Source: Phytopseudomonas daroniae (GTDB taxonomy: Bacteria > Pseudomonadota > Gammaproteobacteria > Pseudomonadales > Pseudomonadaceae). From it: a stretch of 64,000 nucleotides of DNA. This document shows, piece after piece, positions 36,030-57,860 of the stretch (position 1 is its first letter; the number at the start of each line of letters is the position of its first letter). The notes under the pieces are model-generated. The model saw only the letters and a program-made list of their open reading frames with translations, had not been told where the DNA came from and ran no database searches. The DNA lies in NCBI RefSeq assembly GCF_004327285.1, contig NZ_QJUI01000008.1, positions 124,001 through 188,000 on the forward strand, read 5' to 3'. The translations under genes and the position numbers were made by a program.

Positions 36030-37403
36030 TCAGCTGACTACCCGATAGCACGGCTCGTAGGCAGTGCCGCCGGGCAGTTTCATGCGGTGCTGCTCGACGA
36101 AGGACTGCAGCAGGCGATCCAGAGGCTGCATGATGCTTTTTTCACCGCGCAGTTCGTAGGGTCCATGCTCCTCGATCAGGCGGATGCCCTTGTCCTTGAC
36201 GTTGCCCGCGACGATGCCGGAGAAGGCGCGGCGCAGGTTGGCGGCCAGCTCGTGTACCGGCTGCTCGCGGGTCAGGTTGAGGCTGGCCATGGCTTCGTGG
36301 GTCGGCTCGAAGGGGTGCTGGAAGCTCTCATCGATCTTCAGCAGCCAGTTGAAGTGGAAGGCATCGTTACGCTCGCGGCGGAACTGCTCCACCGCCTTGA
36401 TGCCAGCCGCCATATGGCGGGCCACTTCAGTTGGGTCGTTGGGGATCAGCACGTAGCGGTTCTGCGCCTCGACACCGAGGGTCTCGCCAATGAAGGCATG
36501 CAGCTGCTGCAGGTAGGGCTCGGCGCTCTTCGGCCCGGTCAGCACGAGCGGGAAGGGCAGCTCGGCGTTGTCCGGATGCATGAGGATGCCGAGCAGGTAA
36601 AGAAACTCTTCGGCCGTGCCCGCGCCACCGGGGAAGATGATGATGCCGTGGCCGACGCGGACGAAGGCCTCCAGGCGCTTTTCGATATCCGGCAGAATCA
36701 CCAGTTCGTTGACGATCGGGTTCGGTGCTTCGGCGGCGATAATGCCCGGCTCGGTCAGGCCCAGGTAGCGGGCGCCGATGATGCGCTGTTTGGCGTGAGA
36801 AATAGTGGCGCCTTTCATCGGCCCTTTCATTACGCCCGGGCCGCAGCCGGTGCACACGTCCAGGGCGCGCAGGCCCAGCTCGTGGCCGACCTTCTTGGTG
36901 TACTTGTATTCTTCGGTGCTGATCGAGTGGCCGCCCCAGCACACCACCATCTTCGGCTCGGCGCCGGCACGCAGGGTGCGAGCATTGCGCAGCAGGTGGA
37001 AGACGTAGTCGGTCAGGCCGCTGGAGCTGTCCACGTCGACACGTTTGTTTTCCAGCTCGCTCTGGGTGTAGACGATGTCGCGCAGGGCGCTGAACAGCAT
37101 CTCGCGGGTACTGGCGATCATCTCCCCGTCGACGAAAGCATCGGCCGGAGCGTTGATCAGCTCCAGGCGAATGCCGCGATCCTGCTGGTGGATCTTCACT
37201 TCGAAGTCCGGGTAGGCCTCGAGGATGGTCTTGGCGTTGTCGCTGTGCGAGCCGGTGTTGAGAATCGCCAGGGCGCACTGGCGGAACAAGGCGTAGACGC
37301 TACCGGATCCGGTTTCGCGAAGTTGCTGGACTTCACGCTGGGAGAGGGTTTCCAGGCTGCCTTTGGGCGAGACCGAGGCGTTGATTTTCTGGCGAGTGAG
37401 CAT
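36030..37403 (-). CDS. ppnN: PpnN, pyrimidine/purine-5'-nucleotide nucleosidase (LOG family)
   Basis: The product is 457 aa, the length of E. coli PpnN/YgdH. It cleaves nucleoside 5'-monophosphates to base and ribose-5-phosphate and is allosterically controlled by (p)ppGpp in E. coli. The LOG-fold core has the CTGCGPGVMKG glycine motif and the catalytic PGGAGTAEE motif (near residue 230). N- and C-terminal flanking domains, typical of PpnN and absent from short LOG proteins, are both present. It is convergent with the receptor gene. The stretch upstream holds two inverted-repeat elements rather than genes. Confidence 0.93.
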   Translation of the reverse strand: MLTRQKINASVSPKGSLETLSQREVQQLRETGSGSVYALFRQCALAILNTGSHSDNAKTILEAYPDFEVKIHQQDRGIRLELINAPADAFVDGEMIASTREMLFSALRDIVYTQSELENKRVDVDSSSGLTDYVFHLLRNARTLRAGAEPKMVVCWGGHSISTEEYKYTKKVGHELGLRALDVCTGCGPGVMKGPMKGATISHAKQRIIGARYLGLTEPGIIAAEAPNPIVNELVILPDIEKRLEAFVRVGHGIIIFPGGAGTAEEFLYLLGILMHPDNAELPFPLVLTGPKSAEPYLQQLHAFIGETLGVEAQNRYVLIPNDPTEVARHMAAGIKAVEQFRRERNDAFHFNWLLKIDESFQHPFEPTHEAMASLNLTREQPVHELAANLRRAFSGIVAGNVKDKGIRLIEEHGPYELRGEKSIMQPLDRLLQSFVEQHRMKLPGGTAYEPCYRVVS

Positions 37404-37558: not shown

Positions 37559-37620
37559 TAACAGGCTGTTGAAAGCGATGGCGTTGCCGCTGCCTCGCCC
37601 GAGTTTTCAGCAGACTGTTA
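37559..37620. repeat. 62 bp inverted-repeat mini-element
   Basis: TAACAGGCTGTTGAAA (37559-37574) and TTTTCAGCAGACTGTTA (37604-37620) are imperfect inverted repeats. The ends resemble the termini of the 147 bp element at 57678-57824. It directly abuts the element at 37621. Confidence 0.6.
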
Positions 37621-37759
37621 GAACCTGTTTACGATCTAGCGAGCTAGAGTCATGCAAGGCAAAAACAGGCGAGGAAGCGGAGTTTACTGATGTAAATGAG
37701 CATTCCGAGCCTGTTTTTAACGCAGCAGGGCCGACGCGCAGCAGATTGTGAACAGGTTC
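37621..37759. mobile_element. 139 bp inverted-repeat element with internal hairpin (copy 1)
   Basis: The terminal repeats GAACCTGTTTACGATCT and AGATTGTGAACAGGTTC match at 15 of 17 positions. Inside, AAAAACAGGC and GCCTGTTTTT face each other around a ~40 bp centre containing GTTTACTGATGTAAATGAGC. The inner ~70 bp is shared, reverse-complemented, with 57678-57824, while the termini differ. No coding capacity. It looks like a non-autonomous mobile repeat or a structured-RNA element. Confidence 0.7.
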
Positions 37760-37808
37760 TTGGGAAAGACGCGGGCCGCGAAAGTTCTAACATTCGCGGC
37801 CCTGGCAA

Positions 37809-38651
37809 TCAGCCTTGCAGGTTCTTCCACACCGCCAGGCTGGGGGCGGCCTGGTTGAGGGTATAGAAGTGCAGGCCCGGTGCGCCGCCTTCGAGCAGGC
37901 GTTCGCACATGCCGGTGATCATCTCTTCACCGAAGCGCTGGATGCTGTCGGTGTCGTCACCATAAGCCTCCAGTTGCTTGCGTACCCAGCGTGGCAGCTC
38001 GGCGCCGCAGGCGTCGGAGAAGCGCGCCAGTTTGCTGTAGTTGGTGATCGGCATGATGCCCGGTATCACCGGGATGTCGACGCCCAGTTTGCGCACACGT
38101 TCGACGAAGTAGAAGTAGCAGTCGGCGTTGAAGAAATACTGAGTGATCGCACTGCTGGCGCCGGCCTTGGCCTTGCGCACGAAGTTGGCGATATCGTCTT
38201 CGAAGTTGCGTGCCTGTGGGTGCATCTCCGGGTAGGCAGCCACTTCGATATGGAAGTGATCACCGGTTTCGTGACGGATCAGCTCGACCAGGTCATTGGC
38301 ATGGCGCAGTTCGCCGCTGGACATGCCCATGCCCGAAGGCAGGTCGCCACGCAGGGCGACGATACGGGTGATGCCCTTGCTCTTGTACAGATTGAGCAGC
38401 TCGATCAGCTCGGCCTTGCTGTCGCCGACACAGGACAGGTGCGGTGCGGTCGGCACCTTCACTTCGCCGTCGAGTTGCAGCACGGTATTCAGCGTTCGGT
38501 CGCGGGTGGAGCCGCCTGCGCCGTAGGTGCAGGAGAAGAAGTCCGGGTTGTAGCCGGCCAGCTCCCGAGCGGTATTCAGCAGTTTTTCGTGTCCGGCATC
38601 GGTCTTCGTCGGGAAGAACTCGAAACTGACATTGGTTTTTTTCTGGGTCAT
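37809..38651 (-). CDS. metF: 5,10-methylenetetrahydrofolate reductase
   Basis: The product is 280 aa. This FAD-dependent TIM-barrel enzyme reduces methylene-THF to methyl-THF for methionine synthesis. The N-terminal SFEFFPTK motif, DFFSCTYGAGGSTRDRT, ALRGD, the EVAAYPE segment and the ITQYFFNADCY motif are typical. The ATG at 38651 gives MTQKKTNVSFEFFP; the 11-codon upstream extension lacks a ribosome site. It lies downstream of ahcY on the same strand, separated by an inverted heptamer array, so the SAH riboswitch ahead of ahcY may also affect it. Confidence 0.97.
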   Translation of the reverse strand: MTQKKTNVSFEFFPTKTDAGHEKLLNTARELAGYNPDFFSCTYGAGGSTRDRTLNTVLQLDGEVKVPTAPHLSCVGDSKAELIELLNLYKSKGITRIVALRGDLPSGMGMSSGELRHANDLVELIRHETGDHFHIEVAAYPEMHPQARNFEDDIANFVRKAKAGASSAITQYFFNADCYFYFVERVRKLGVDIPVIPGIMPITNYSKLARFSDACGAELPRWVRKQLEAYGDDTDSIQRFGEEMITGMCERLLEGGAPGLHFYTLNQAAPSLAVWKNLQG

Positions 38652-38678
38652 GGAGAAGGTTCCCTTCTCAGCGGCAAG

Positions 38679-38742
38679 CCTCAAGCCTCAAGCTGCAAGT
38701 GGAGTCGGCTCCCTCTTGCAGCTTGTAGCTTGTGGCTTGTAG
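38679..38742. repeat. Inverted heptamer array, copy 2, between ahcY and metF
   Basis: Left arm: GCCTCAA units and GCTGCAA (38679-38699). Right arm: CTTGCAG, CTTGTAG, CTTGTGG, CTTGTAG (38715-38742). The innermost arms CAAGCTGCAAG and CTTGCAGCTTG pair perfectly over 11 bp, and GGAG-tcgg-CTCC pairs inside the loop, giving a long hairpin. Confidence 0.8.
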
Positions 38743-40143: not shown

Positions 40144-40171
40144 ACAAAGCTCTCCATTCGTTGTCTGCGAA

Positions 40172-40246
40172 TGGGCGCCGTTGATGCGTTTGGTTAACGC
40201 CCCATCCGAGCCTGACAGGTCAACCCTGCTGCAGCGCCCCTCGGAC
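40172..40246 (-). ncRNA. SAH riboswitch upstream of ahcY
   Basis: On the minus strand the conserved core elements occur in order: CCGAGG, GCGCTGC, CAGGCTCGG and AACGGCGCC, matching the SAH riboswitch, an aptamer known mainly in front of ahcY in Pseudomonas and relatives. The first and third elements pair (CCGAG with CTCGG). Just after the core, CATTCG-N7-CGAATG can form a hairpin that abuts the GGAGAG ribosome site (40150-40155), a plausible translational switch. SAH binding is expected to turn ahcY on. Confidence 0.88.
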
Positions 40247-40405
40247 AGGTGGCGGGCACGACCGGGCTGTGCCGGGCGCGTGAAACCCGGCGATTATAGC
40301 GGCGCCGGCACGCGAGCCCAAGGTTTTCCGTCGAGATGTAGCGGGTATTCGTGCACGGGTTACCGGCAGGCTACAGTCTCCTTTCATCTCTGTTGGAAAG
40401 TTGCC

Positions 40406-55426: not shown

Positions 55427-57646
55427 TCAGAATAGATCGATCGGATCGACATCCAGCGACCAGCGCACGGCACGCCCACTGGGCAGACTCTCCAGCACCA
55501 GCAGCCAGTGGGCGAGCAGTTTGTGCAGGGGCGCGCGGGCGTTGCCTTGCAGCAGCAACTGGGCGCGGTAGCGACCGGCGCGACGCTCCATCGGTGCGGG
55601 CACCGGGCCGAGCAGTTCGATGCCGCTCAGGCCCAGCTCTCCCAGCAATTGCTCGGCCTCGTTGCAGGCTTCATCGAGAAAACCTTCGGCTTGCCCGGGT
55701 TTGTGCGCTTCGGCGCGCAGCAGGGCCAGGTGGCAGAACGGCGGTAAACCGGCGGCGCGGCGCTCGCTGAGGGCCTGATCGGCAAAGGCGAAGTAGCCCT
55801 GCTCGGTCAGTTGCACCAGCAGCGGGTGGTCGGCCAGATGACTCTGGATGATCACCTTGCCCGGCTCTTCGGCGCGCCCGGCACGACCAGCCACCTGGAC
55901 GATCAACTGAGCCATGCGCTCGCTGGCGCGGAAGTCCGCCGAAAACAGGCCGCCGTCGGCGTCGAGGATGGCCACCAGGGTCACCCGTGGGAAGTGGTGA
56001 CCCTTGGCGAGCATCTGGGTGCCGACCAGGATGCACGGCTCACCACGCTGCACGGTGTTGAACAGGGTGGTCATGGCTTCCTTGCGCGAGGTGCTGTCGC
56101 GATCTACCCGTAGCACCGGTACCTCGGGGAAGAGGATCTCCAGGCGTTCTTCGGCCCTCTCGGTGCCGGCTCCGACCGGGCGCAGGTCGACGTTGTTGCA
56201 GCTCGGGCAGTTGCTTGGCTGGCGTTCGGCATGGCCGCAATGGTGGCAGCGCAGCTCGCGGCTGCGCTGATGCACGGTCATGCGCGCGTCGCAACGTGGG
56301 CATTGCGACAGCCAGCCGCATTCGTGGCACAGCAGGGTCGGTGCGAAGCCGCGGCGATTGAGAAACACCAGTACCTGCTGGCCGGCGGCCAGGGTCTGGG
56401 CGATGGCCTGCTGCAGTGGCGGCGACATGCCGGCGTCGAGCGGGCGACTCTTGATGTCCAGGCGCAGAAAGCGTGGCGGATGGGCGCCACCGGCACGCTG
56501 ATTCATGCGCAGCAGGGCGTAGCGGCCGCTGTGGGCGTTGTGCAGGCTCTCCAGCGAGGGGGTGGCCGAGCCGAGAACGATCGGTACGTTTTCCTGATGG
56601 GCGCGCACCACGGCCAGATCGCGGGCGTGGTAGCGCAGGCCTTCCTGCTGTTTATAGGACGCGTCGTGTTCTTCGTCGATGATGATCAGGCCCGGCCGCT
56701 TCATTGGCGTGAACAGTGCCGAGCGTGTGCCGATGATGATGTCGGCCTCGCCATCGCGAGCGGCCAGCCAGGCATCCAGGCGCTCGCGGTCGTTGACCGC
56801 TGAGTGCAGCAGGGCGATACGCGCGTTGAAGCGGCGCTCGAAGCGCGCCAGGGTCTGCGGGCCCAGGTTGATCTCGGGAATCAGCACCAGCGCCTGCTTG
56901 CCGGCCTCCAGGGTTTCGCGGATCAGTTGCAGGTAGACCTCGGTCTTGCCGCTGCCGGTGACACCAGCGAGCAGGAACGCATTGAAGCTGTCGAAGCCGG
57001 CGCGCACCGCCTCGGCCGCGGCGCGTTGCTCGGCATTGAGTGGCAGCTCGGGCTGGGCCAACCAGTTGGCGTGGCGCTCGGGGCTGCTCAGGCGGCGGAC
57101 TTCGACGCGCACCAGGCCTTTTTCCTGCAGCAGTTGCAGGCTGTCGCGGTTGATCTGCAACTGACTGAGCAACTGATGGGCGACGCCGTGGGGGTGTTGG
57201 GCGATGGTCTTCAGCGCATCGCGCTGACGGGGCGCGCGAGCCAGACGTGGGTCATCCAGATGGGCGTCCTTGGCGATCAGCCAGAAACGCTCCTGGCGCG
57301 CCTCGGCCGGCTCGCCCTGGCGCAGCAGCACTGGCAATGCCCAACTGAGGGTGTCGCCGAGGCTGTGCTGGTAATACTGCGCCGTCCACTGGCACAGGCG
57401 CAGCAGTGCTGGCGGCATGGGCGCCTGCAGGTCGAGCAGTTGCAGGGCGGGCTTGAGTTTGTCGGCCGGTACCTCGCTGTGCTCGCTGACTTCCACCAGA
57501 ATGCCGATCATCTCGCGACGGCCGAACGGTACGCGCAGCCGCGCGCCAGGACGCAGGTCACGAGTCGACACGCCAGGCGGGGCGAGGTAGTCGAACAGGC
57601 GGCGCAGCGGCGAGGGCAGGGCGAGTCGCAGGATGGCGTCGGGCAC
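55427..57646 (-). CDS. priA: Primosomal protein N' (replication restart helicase PriA)
   Basis: The product is 739 aa. PriA recognises stalled forks and reloads DnaB. The N-terminal 3'-DNA-binding domain (~1-105), Walker A GVTGSGKTEVYL (near residue 230), DEEHD box and the two zinc-binding clusters CHECGWLSQCPRC and CHHCG...CPSC (~435-480) are in place, then the second helicase lobe (VGTQMLAKGHHFP) and C-terminal domain. Length matches E. coli (732). It is upstream of argS on the same strand with ~130 bp between. Confidence 0.98.
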   Translation of the reverse strand: MPDAILRLALPSPLRRLFDYLAPPGVSTRDLRPGARLRVPFGRREMIGILVEVSEHSEVPADKLKPALQLLDLQAPMPPALLRLCQWTAQYYQHSLGDTLSWALPVLLRQGEPAEARQERFWLIAKDAHLDDPRLARAPRQRDALKTIAQHPHGVAHQLLSQLQINRDSLQLLQEKGLVRVEVRRLSSPERHANWLAQPELPLNAEQRAAAEAVRAGFDSFNAFLLAGVTGSGKTEVYLQLIRETLEAGKQALVLIPEINLGPQTLARFERRFNARIALLHSAVNDRERLDAWLAARDGEADIIIGTRSALFTPMKRPGLIIIDEEHDASYKQQEGLRYHARDLAVVRAHQENVPIVLGSATPSLESLHNAHSGRYALLRMNQRAGGAHPPRFLRLDIKSRPLDAGMSPPLQQAIAQTLAAGQQVLVFLNRRGFAPTLLCHECGWLSQCPRCDARMTVHQRSRELRCHHCGHAERQPSNCPSCNNVDLRPVGAGTERAEERLEILFPEVPVLRVDRDSTSRKEAMTTLFNTVQRGEPCILVGTQMLAKGHHFPRVTLVAILDADGGLFSADFRASERMAQLIVQVAGRAGRAEEPGKVIIQSHLADHPLLVQLTEQGYFAFADQALSERRAAGLPPFCHLALLRAEAHKPGQAEGFLDEACNEAEQLLGELGLSGIELLGPVPAPMERRAGRYRAQLLLQGNARAPLHKLLAHWLLVLESLPSGRAVRWSLDVDPIDLF

Positions 57647-57677: not shown

Positions 57678-57824
57678 TTAGCAGGCCATTGAAAAACTAC
57701 CTACGTTGCCATCGCTGCGTTAAAAACAGGCTCAAAATGCTCATTTACAGCCAGTAAACTGCGCTTTTTCGCCTGTTTTTGTCTTGCGCTGGCTGCCTCG
57801 CAAACGTTTTTCAACGGCCTGCTA
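57678..57824. mobile_element. 147 bp inverted-repeat element with internal hairpin (copy 2)
   Basis: Ends read TAGCAGGCCATTGAAAAAC and GTTTTTCAACGGCCTGCTA, inverted with one mismatch. The interior contains AAAAACAGGC ... GCCTGTTTTT around a centre with GTAAA/TTTAC symmetry, and its inner ~70 bp matches 37621-37759 in reverse orientation. It lies between divergent priA and rpmE. Confidence 0.72.
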
Positions 57825-57860
57825 GCATGCCCCCTGGCGACGACCGGCAGAGCCTGTGGC

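Follow-up and report, generated by a model that had tools for sequence, protein, structure and literature searches.

Short inverted-repeat elements of Phytopseudomonas daroniae carry different IS5-type ends around a common folded core and are apparently related to ERIC

The stretch of DNA analysed here (the window) comprises 64,000 nucleotides of a Phytopseudomonas daroniae contig and contains two short elements, A and B, of 139 and 140 bp, which as read in the sequence possess terminal inverted repeats and no transposase gene. Element A lies between metF and ppnN and element B adjoins priA on the upstream side of that gene, the three genes being assigned by Pfam; the gene on the far side of B from priA is presumably rpmE, from reading only. 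The features are listed below by window coordinates; E-values of covariance-model searches, here and throughout, are rough.

36030-37403, minus strand: ppnN
37562-37617: core-less palindrome with T2-like ends (CAGGCTGTTGAAA ... TTTTCAGCAGACTG), adjoining A upstream, flanks TTAA/TTAG, identified by reading
37618-37620 and 37760-37762: target flanks of A, TTA on the left (TNA) and TTG on the right, not an exact duplication
37621-37759, plus strand as sense (better-folding) strand: element A, T1 ends (GAACCTGTTTACGATC / GATTGTGAACAGGTTC)
37657-37731, plus strand: core of A, 92.0 bits with covariance model R2 (E=3.6e-22); ERIC model R3 gives 20.4 bits over 37631-37750
37809-38684, minus strand: metF
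55427-57646, minus strand: priA
57678-57681 and 57822-57825: target flanks of B, TTAG on the left and CTAG on the right, NTAN type, not an exact duplication
57682-57821, minus strand as sense strand: element B, T2 ends (CAGGCCATTGAAAAAC / GTTTTTCAACGGCCTG)
57709-57784, minus strand: core of B, 91.0 bits with R2 (E=6.8e-22), missed by R3

The original prediction held that A and B share inner sequence within different terminal repeats, and this is borne out by a single BLASTN match between them (74 bp, 89% identity, inverted, E=2.5e-22) and by ends that are unrelated and belong to types T1 and T2, respectively. The bounds proposed for A (37621-37759) stand, whereas those proposed for B (57678-57824) are now 57682-57821, because the TTAG and CTAG beside its CAGGCC ends are the target site. 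Model R2, whose training sequences include neither window copy, scores no more than 14.9 bits elsewhere in the window. Rfam returned no match for A or B at the gathering score, the only match in the window being an SAH riboswitch at 40166-40248 on the minus strand (RF01057, 65.8 bits), and for five element loci it gave weak matches up to E=5 that indicate no single family.

The element is one long imperfect palindrome, in which concentric stems are separated by asymmetric, purine-rich internal loops. The core of A has the layout AGGC-stem-GA-GGAAGC-GGA-GTTTAC-loop-GTAAAT-GA-GCATTCC-GA-stem-AACGC, and the sense-strand consensus is AGGC-stem-GA-RRAAGC-GSA-GTTTAC-loop-GTAAAT-GA-GCATTYY-GA-stem-AACGC. 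On one strand the internal loops AGGC/AACGC, GA/GA and GSA/GA hardly vary; across the class, 18 of 19 loop columns are identical in 37-38 of 38 sequences, the exception being one G/C column. Among 75 mostly Pseudomonas sequences (A and B included) double changes occur in 12 of 22 pairs with 98.7% of cells paired, and among the 38 class-wide sequences in 15 of 22 pairs with 98.4% paired. Fitting to the model biases the pair counts of one alignment (A3) towards structure, and another (A2) was made by plain MAFFT, its structure being read from the same sequences. For each of five measures, all 500 shuffles fell short of the observed value, and sliding the pairings out of register lowered the paired cells to 29-51%. 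Lack of covariation had been named as grounds for giving up the original prediction; the core stems instead covary strongly.

Imperfect inverted repeats are known to undergo correction, which counts for another reading of the stems that covary along the core, namely that the core is functionless, its covariation coming from quasipalindrome correction by template switching and its loops being shared through recent common descent. We regard this as unlikely, since correction should erase asymmetric loops, yet nearly all of the loop columns are identical across the class. The G.U pair closing the apical helix is likewise kept, in 71/75, 36/38 and 7/10 sequences of three alignments, and the other mispairs of the sense strand include 26 G.U against 6 A.C, with 15 further non-standard cells.

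The elements are numerous. BLAST matches in the P. daroniae genome number 42 with A and 44 with B as the query, and the fetched loci of this genome hold at least 44 distinct full-length cores, with interrupted cores at four further places, which disposes of the objection that only these two copies exist. The interrupted copies inspected carry small insertions, and no core-bearing autonomous parent was seen among them. Model R1 matches 127 of 149 genomes of the genus, 145 of 369 genomes across the class (117 of 272 genera) and 84 of 299 genomes in a phylum sample, some of these belonging to the phylum but to other classes; a member of the genus assembled as a single contig has at least 76 matches at E<=1e-10, copies per genome from model searches being lower bounds. 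The exact core pattern yielded at least 118 named loci, of which 104 are titled Pseudomonas, 4 Stutzerimonas, 1 Halopseudomonas, 2 Pseudomonadaceae, 6 unclassified Gammaproteobacteria and 1 a Nitrosomonas MAG; contig loci were collected by an exact left-half core pattern, which suppresses variation there. Core copies are also present in one Halomonas and one Candidatus Fukatsuia record. The Halomonas copy (L225 2010-2101) has an internal insertion like those in L048 and L057 of P. daroniae, and the plasmid of Candidatus Fukatsuia symbiotica (Enterobacterales; L358 314-354) has part of a core, of the non-ERIC type, scoring 33 bits. A tRNA gene array of P. daroniae (L030 1228-1590; G000:C22, ~240 kb) holds two element copies.

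The ends fall into at least five types, which were defined visually and given to each copy on the basis of mismatch thresholds, and the 241 of 242 elements scored for ends and duplications comprise 51 T1, 73 T2, 20 T3, 18 T4 and 29 T5 copies together with 50 untyped ones. An exact 3-bp target duplication flanks 23 of 51 T1 copies compared with 8.9 after shuffling, and a 4-bp one flanks 0 of 51. Exact 4-bp duplications are found at 34 of 73 T2 copies (9.9 shuffled), 6 of 20 T3 copies (0.2 shuffled) and 6 of 18 T4 copies (0.7 shuffled); the 2-bp match at 21 of 29 T5 copies (17.6 shuffled) says little. Only 69 of the 162 T1-T4 copies have an exact duplication, and neither A nor B does. Target duplications are statistically present for T1-T4, their length varying with end type (3 bp for T1, 4 bp for T2-T4), and the flanks are of the form TNA for T1 and mostly NTAN for T2.

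Several of these ends match those of insertion sequences. The T1 ends match an IS5-family IS on a Moraxella osloensis plasmid, with TAA on both sides, a partner found in Moraxella only. The T2 ends match ISPst12, flanked by CTAG/CTAG in L293 and TTAG/CTAG in L294, and also ISDisp1, flanked by TTAG/TTAG; Pfam places a DDE_Tnp_1 domain in both transposases. For T5 the partner is in P. daroniae itself, a two-frame IS of 910 bp (G000:C44, L221) whose ends each differ from the T5 consensus at one position and beside which stand CTA/TAG as at many T5 copies. This is the one of four DDE_Tnp_1 genes of the genome checked for the five ends that fits, and none of the 48 copies typed at L001-L070 of the same genome has T5 ends. 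No IS among those analysed has terminal repeats matching T3 or T4. Similarity between element and IS stops at the terminal repeat, after ~15-17 bp, the flank type also being common to both, and model R2 detects no core inside the partner IS loci at E<=1. A fuzzy 10-mer match to the core inside the 910-bp IS (L221) was unconfirmed by R2. Flanking dyads, as expected for insertion into terminator loops, show little or no excess at T1 (18/50 against 30.8%), T2 (28/73 against 30.7%) and T5 (4/28 against 30.5%), and a weak excess at T3 (9/20 against 35.5%) and T4 (12/18 against 40%), with clear single cases among the T4 copies. Some T4 copies (L079, L155, L142 and L061) lie inside terminator-like hairpin loops, often 20-31 nt past a called stop.

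Like interiors recur under unlike ends. In P. daroniae, L015 and the T2 copy L052 have matching insertions at two internal positions, the ends of L015 being T1-like by reading and untyped by the thresholds. In other genomes a GTCG..CGAC hairpin module was read under T1 (L101), T2 (L156) and T5 ends (L115, L180), and a GACCAGCC-NNN-GGCTGTTACT module was found under T1, T2 and T4 ends by regular expressions whose matches were partly checked by eye and carry no chance control. By reading, L186 combines T4-like arms with T1 ends and L184 combines T2-like arms with T3 ends. Variants of the core (GG/AA with TTTA/TGTA) occur across the end types in uneven proportions, T1 being mostly GG and T2 and T3 mostly AA, a distribution that homoplasy by itself could explain. 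Core-less palindromes with T2-like ends occur in P. daroniae at L215, L209 and L210 besides the one beside A, so such ends do not need the core. At the locus of B in the sister genome G001 the element is absent and the flanks, 87-90% identical, are nearly adjacent, an empty site of the kind whose absence would have weighed against mobility. The junction is several bases off a perfect pre-insertion site, which leaves insertion likelier than loss of B. Element A is also absent from G001, where the intergenic region is not alignable. The suggestion that these are modular mobile elements thus gains support from the IS5-type end matches, the duplication length typical of each end type, the shared insertions and the absence of B.

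The two strands of the elements are not equivalent. The sense strand is the better folder in 43 of 51 T1, 58 of 71 T2, 19 of 20 T3, 16 of 18 T4 and 26 of 27 T5 elements, and for whole elements in 162 of 187 with RNA and 168 of 187 with DNA folding parameters, the folding set being 187 of the 191 typed elements after exclusion of four that exceed 260 bases. Because the asymmetry is the same with both sets of parameters, folding cannot separate RNA from single-stranded DNA.

Neighbouring genes were taken from heuristic calls, which Pfam bears out at A and, next to B, at priA. Among 240 copies, 181 have two neighbours, 19 overlap a called ORF and 40 have no called neighbour within 700 bp. Between tandem genes the T1 sense strand runs opposite to the genes in 28 cases and with them in 6, and the T2 sense strand is opposite in 17 and with in 9, whereas T3 (11 with, 2 opposite) and T4 (9 with, 2 opposite) show the reverse preference; the copies counted are not independent, their genomes being related. 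T1 copies often start right at a stop codon, TAA or TGA being at the same time the TNA target, and their orientation bias is strong. With the origin set at dnaA and the terminus opposite, orientation to the replication fork is weakly and heterogeneously biased (91 against and 59 with, among the 150 of 311 matches listed, from 8 of 10 genomes).

These positions could be taken to indicate a host-selected RNA element, acting as a bidirectional terminator or mRNA-stability hairpin, with mobility incidental. Most copies do lie outside called ORFs, T1 copies often sit at a stop codon in one orientation (28/34 tandem-gene cases), T3 (11/13) and T4 (9/11) are biased too, and in Yersinia, according to the available part of the source, ERIC alters mRNA stability depending on its orientation (PMC2229807). 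The preferred orientation of T1 is, however, opposite to that of T3 and T4, although the same strand folds better in all five types, a pattern that speaks against a single constant function in host mRNA. In addition, a terminator's U run is interrupted by stem changes such as GATTTC and GCTTTC, and B stands between the divergent genes priA and rpmE. We therefore consider a host RNA element improbable. The proposal that the core is selected as a structured RNA keeps its structured core and its strand asymmetry, but selection on RNA specifically is unsupported, because orientation differs by end type and DNA parameters give the same asymmetry. A role of the core in the element's own spread, as RNA or single-stranded DNA, is favoured.

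ERIC is an E. coli repeat of long-standing use in typing, and the present elements are apparently related to it, a kinship visible with structure models only. ERIC (also IRU or RU-1) is a palindrome of ~127 bp with the loop order AAGGC / GGAG-YTTAC / GTAAR-TGA / AACGC, a G.U-closed apical helix and, in one ERIC copy folded, the same strand as the better folder, whereas its stems and terminal repeats are unlike those of the elements. On E. coli ERIC, R1 gives 10.5 bits in register and R2 gives 9.8 bits, both weak. In 8 of 10 Enterobacterales ERIC loci the best R2 match is a sense-strand one within the core of ERIC; 3 of 10 reach E<0.05 (the best, in Pantoea, at 19.7 bits and E=5.7e-4), 2 of 10 have no match at E<=10, and the alignment of L364 has its apical part shifted out of register. 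The reciprocal model R3, built from the same 10 ERICs, gave nine matches up to E=10 over 52 loci (161.5 kb), one in each of 9 loci, with none in the other 43 and none antisense. All nine fall on elements, on the sense strand and over the full model (best E=1.9e-5, five at E<0.05), in a search where element sense strands make up ~2.3% of the sequence, and in the 64-kb window A is the sole match (E=0.0092), B being missed.

The low scores of single ERICs, such as the E. coli copy at ~10 bits, the few significant R2 matches with the shifted one at L364, and the R3 matches in as few as 9 of 52 loci would suit a different account, in which the elements are separate MITE families with convergent cores and their resemblance to ERIC reflects chance or generic palindrome scoring. 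This seems very unlikely, given that every R3 match falls on an element, sense strand and full model, that A alone is matched in the 64 kb, and that the ERIC consensus loops AAGGC, GGAG, TGA and AACGC follow the same order as in the elements. A palindrome of any origin may score with a model of this kind; the absent antisense matches and matching loop letters speak against generic scoring. As the core loops and strand match and the ends differ, the elements are related to ERIC and are not an ERIC. According to the part of the source available, ERIC ends carry TA (PMC2229807), whereas the Pseudomonas elements have IS5-type ends with 3- or 4-bp duplications; TA-containing ends or a TA duplication as in ERIC were not found among them, the flanks being TNA (T1) and mostly NTAN (T2). 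Pseudomonas is absent from the ten organisms listed by name in a BLAST of ERIC against plasmid records (6 more lie beyond these). A 2011 study by Zo, cited in PMC10969869, reportedly dealt with ERIC in Gammaproteobacteria. No published link between ERIC and Pseudomonas repeats was recognised by title or abstract in the open-access literature, and our claim of novelty is limited accordingly; among the matches listed for core fragments in print, the papers look unrelated by title.

MITEs of IS5-family IS, here those of ISPst12, ISDisp1, the Moraxella IS and the 910-bp IS, have terminal repeats and flank type in common with the elements, but in the latter one interior is common to several end types and the partner IS loci are without the core. 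REP and REPIN sequences, associated with RAYT, are short palindromic non-autonomous repeats, from which the present elements differ by terminal inverted repeats and the duplications expected for DDE transposases. YPAL (RU-2) of Yersinia is a palindromic repeat as well; as far as the accessible portion of the source goes, it targets sites at or near dyad symmetry and has duplications of 3-26 bp (PMC2229807), and some T4 copies likewise occupy dyad-symmetric targets. The R0-R200 repeats of P. fluorescens are intergenic, several with inverted repeats and some proposed as MITEs, in the sections of the source available (PMC2718517), and R6, R30 or R178 may be identical with the elements.

Taken together, A and B are probably non-autonomous, MITE-like members of a Pseudomonadota-wide superfamily that includes ERIC, in which IS5-type ends have been exchanged around a conserved single-strand fold. 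We infer from the sequence that copies would be moved in trans by an IS5-family transposase recognising their current ends. The ends may be exchanged by recombination or template switching between palindromes, after which fold-back copying probably makes both arms match again. The core would be kept because the sense-strand fold helps the element itself rather than one host gene, and this fold may belong to a replication or transposition intermediate or to a transcript. With somewhat less than even confidence we propose, more broadly, that ERIC and the elements form one ancient superfamily with a strand-specific fold containing tandem G.A loops, whose nested stem layers are replaceable independently, whose core has been carried by several IS5-type transposases, and whose core functions as single-stranded DNA or RNA in its spread.

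As far as the available parts of the literature found say, the way in which ERIC moves is unproven, and a related family with IS5-type ends would make its mobility testable. If true, MITEs that keep a constant single-strand fold while the ends recognised by the transposase change would be following a distinct evolutionary route. The annotation of non-coding RNAs and terminators in many genomes is affected by a structured repeat that is widespread and has no Rfam match.
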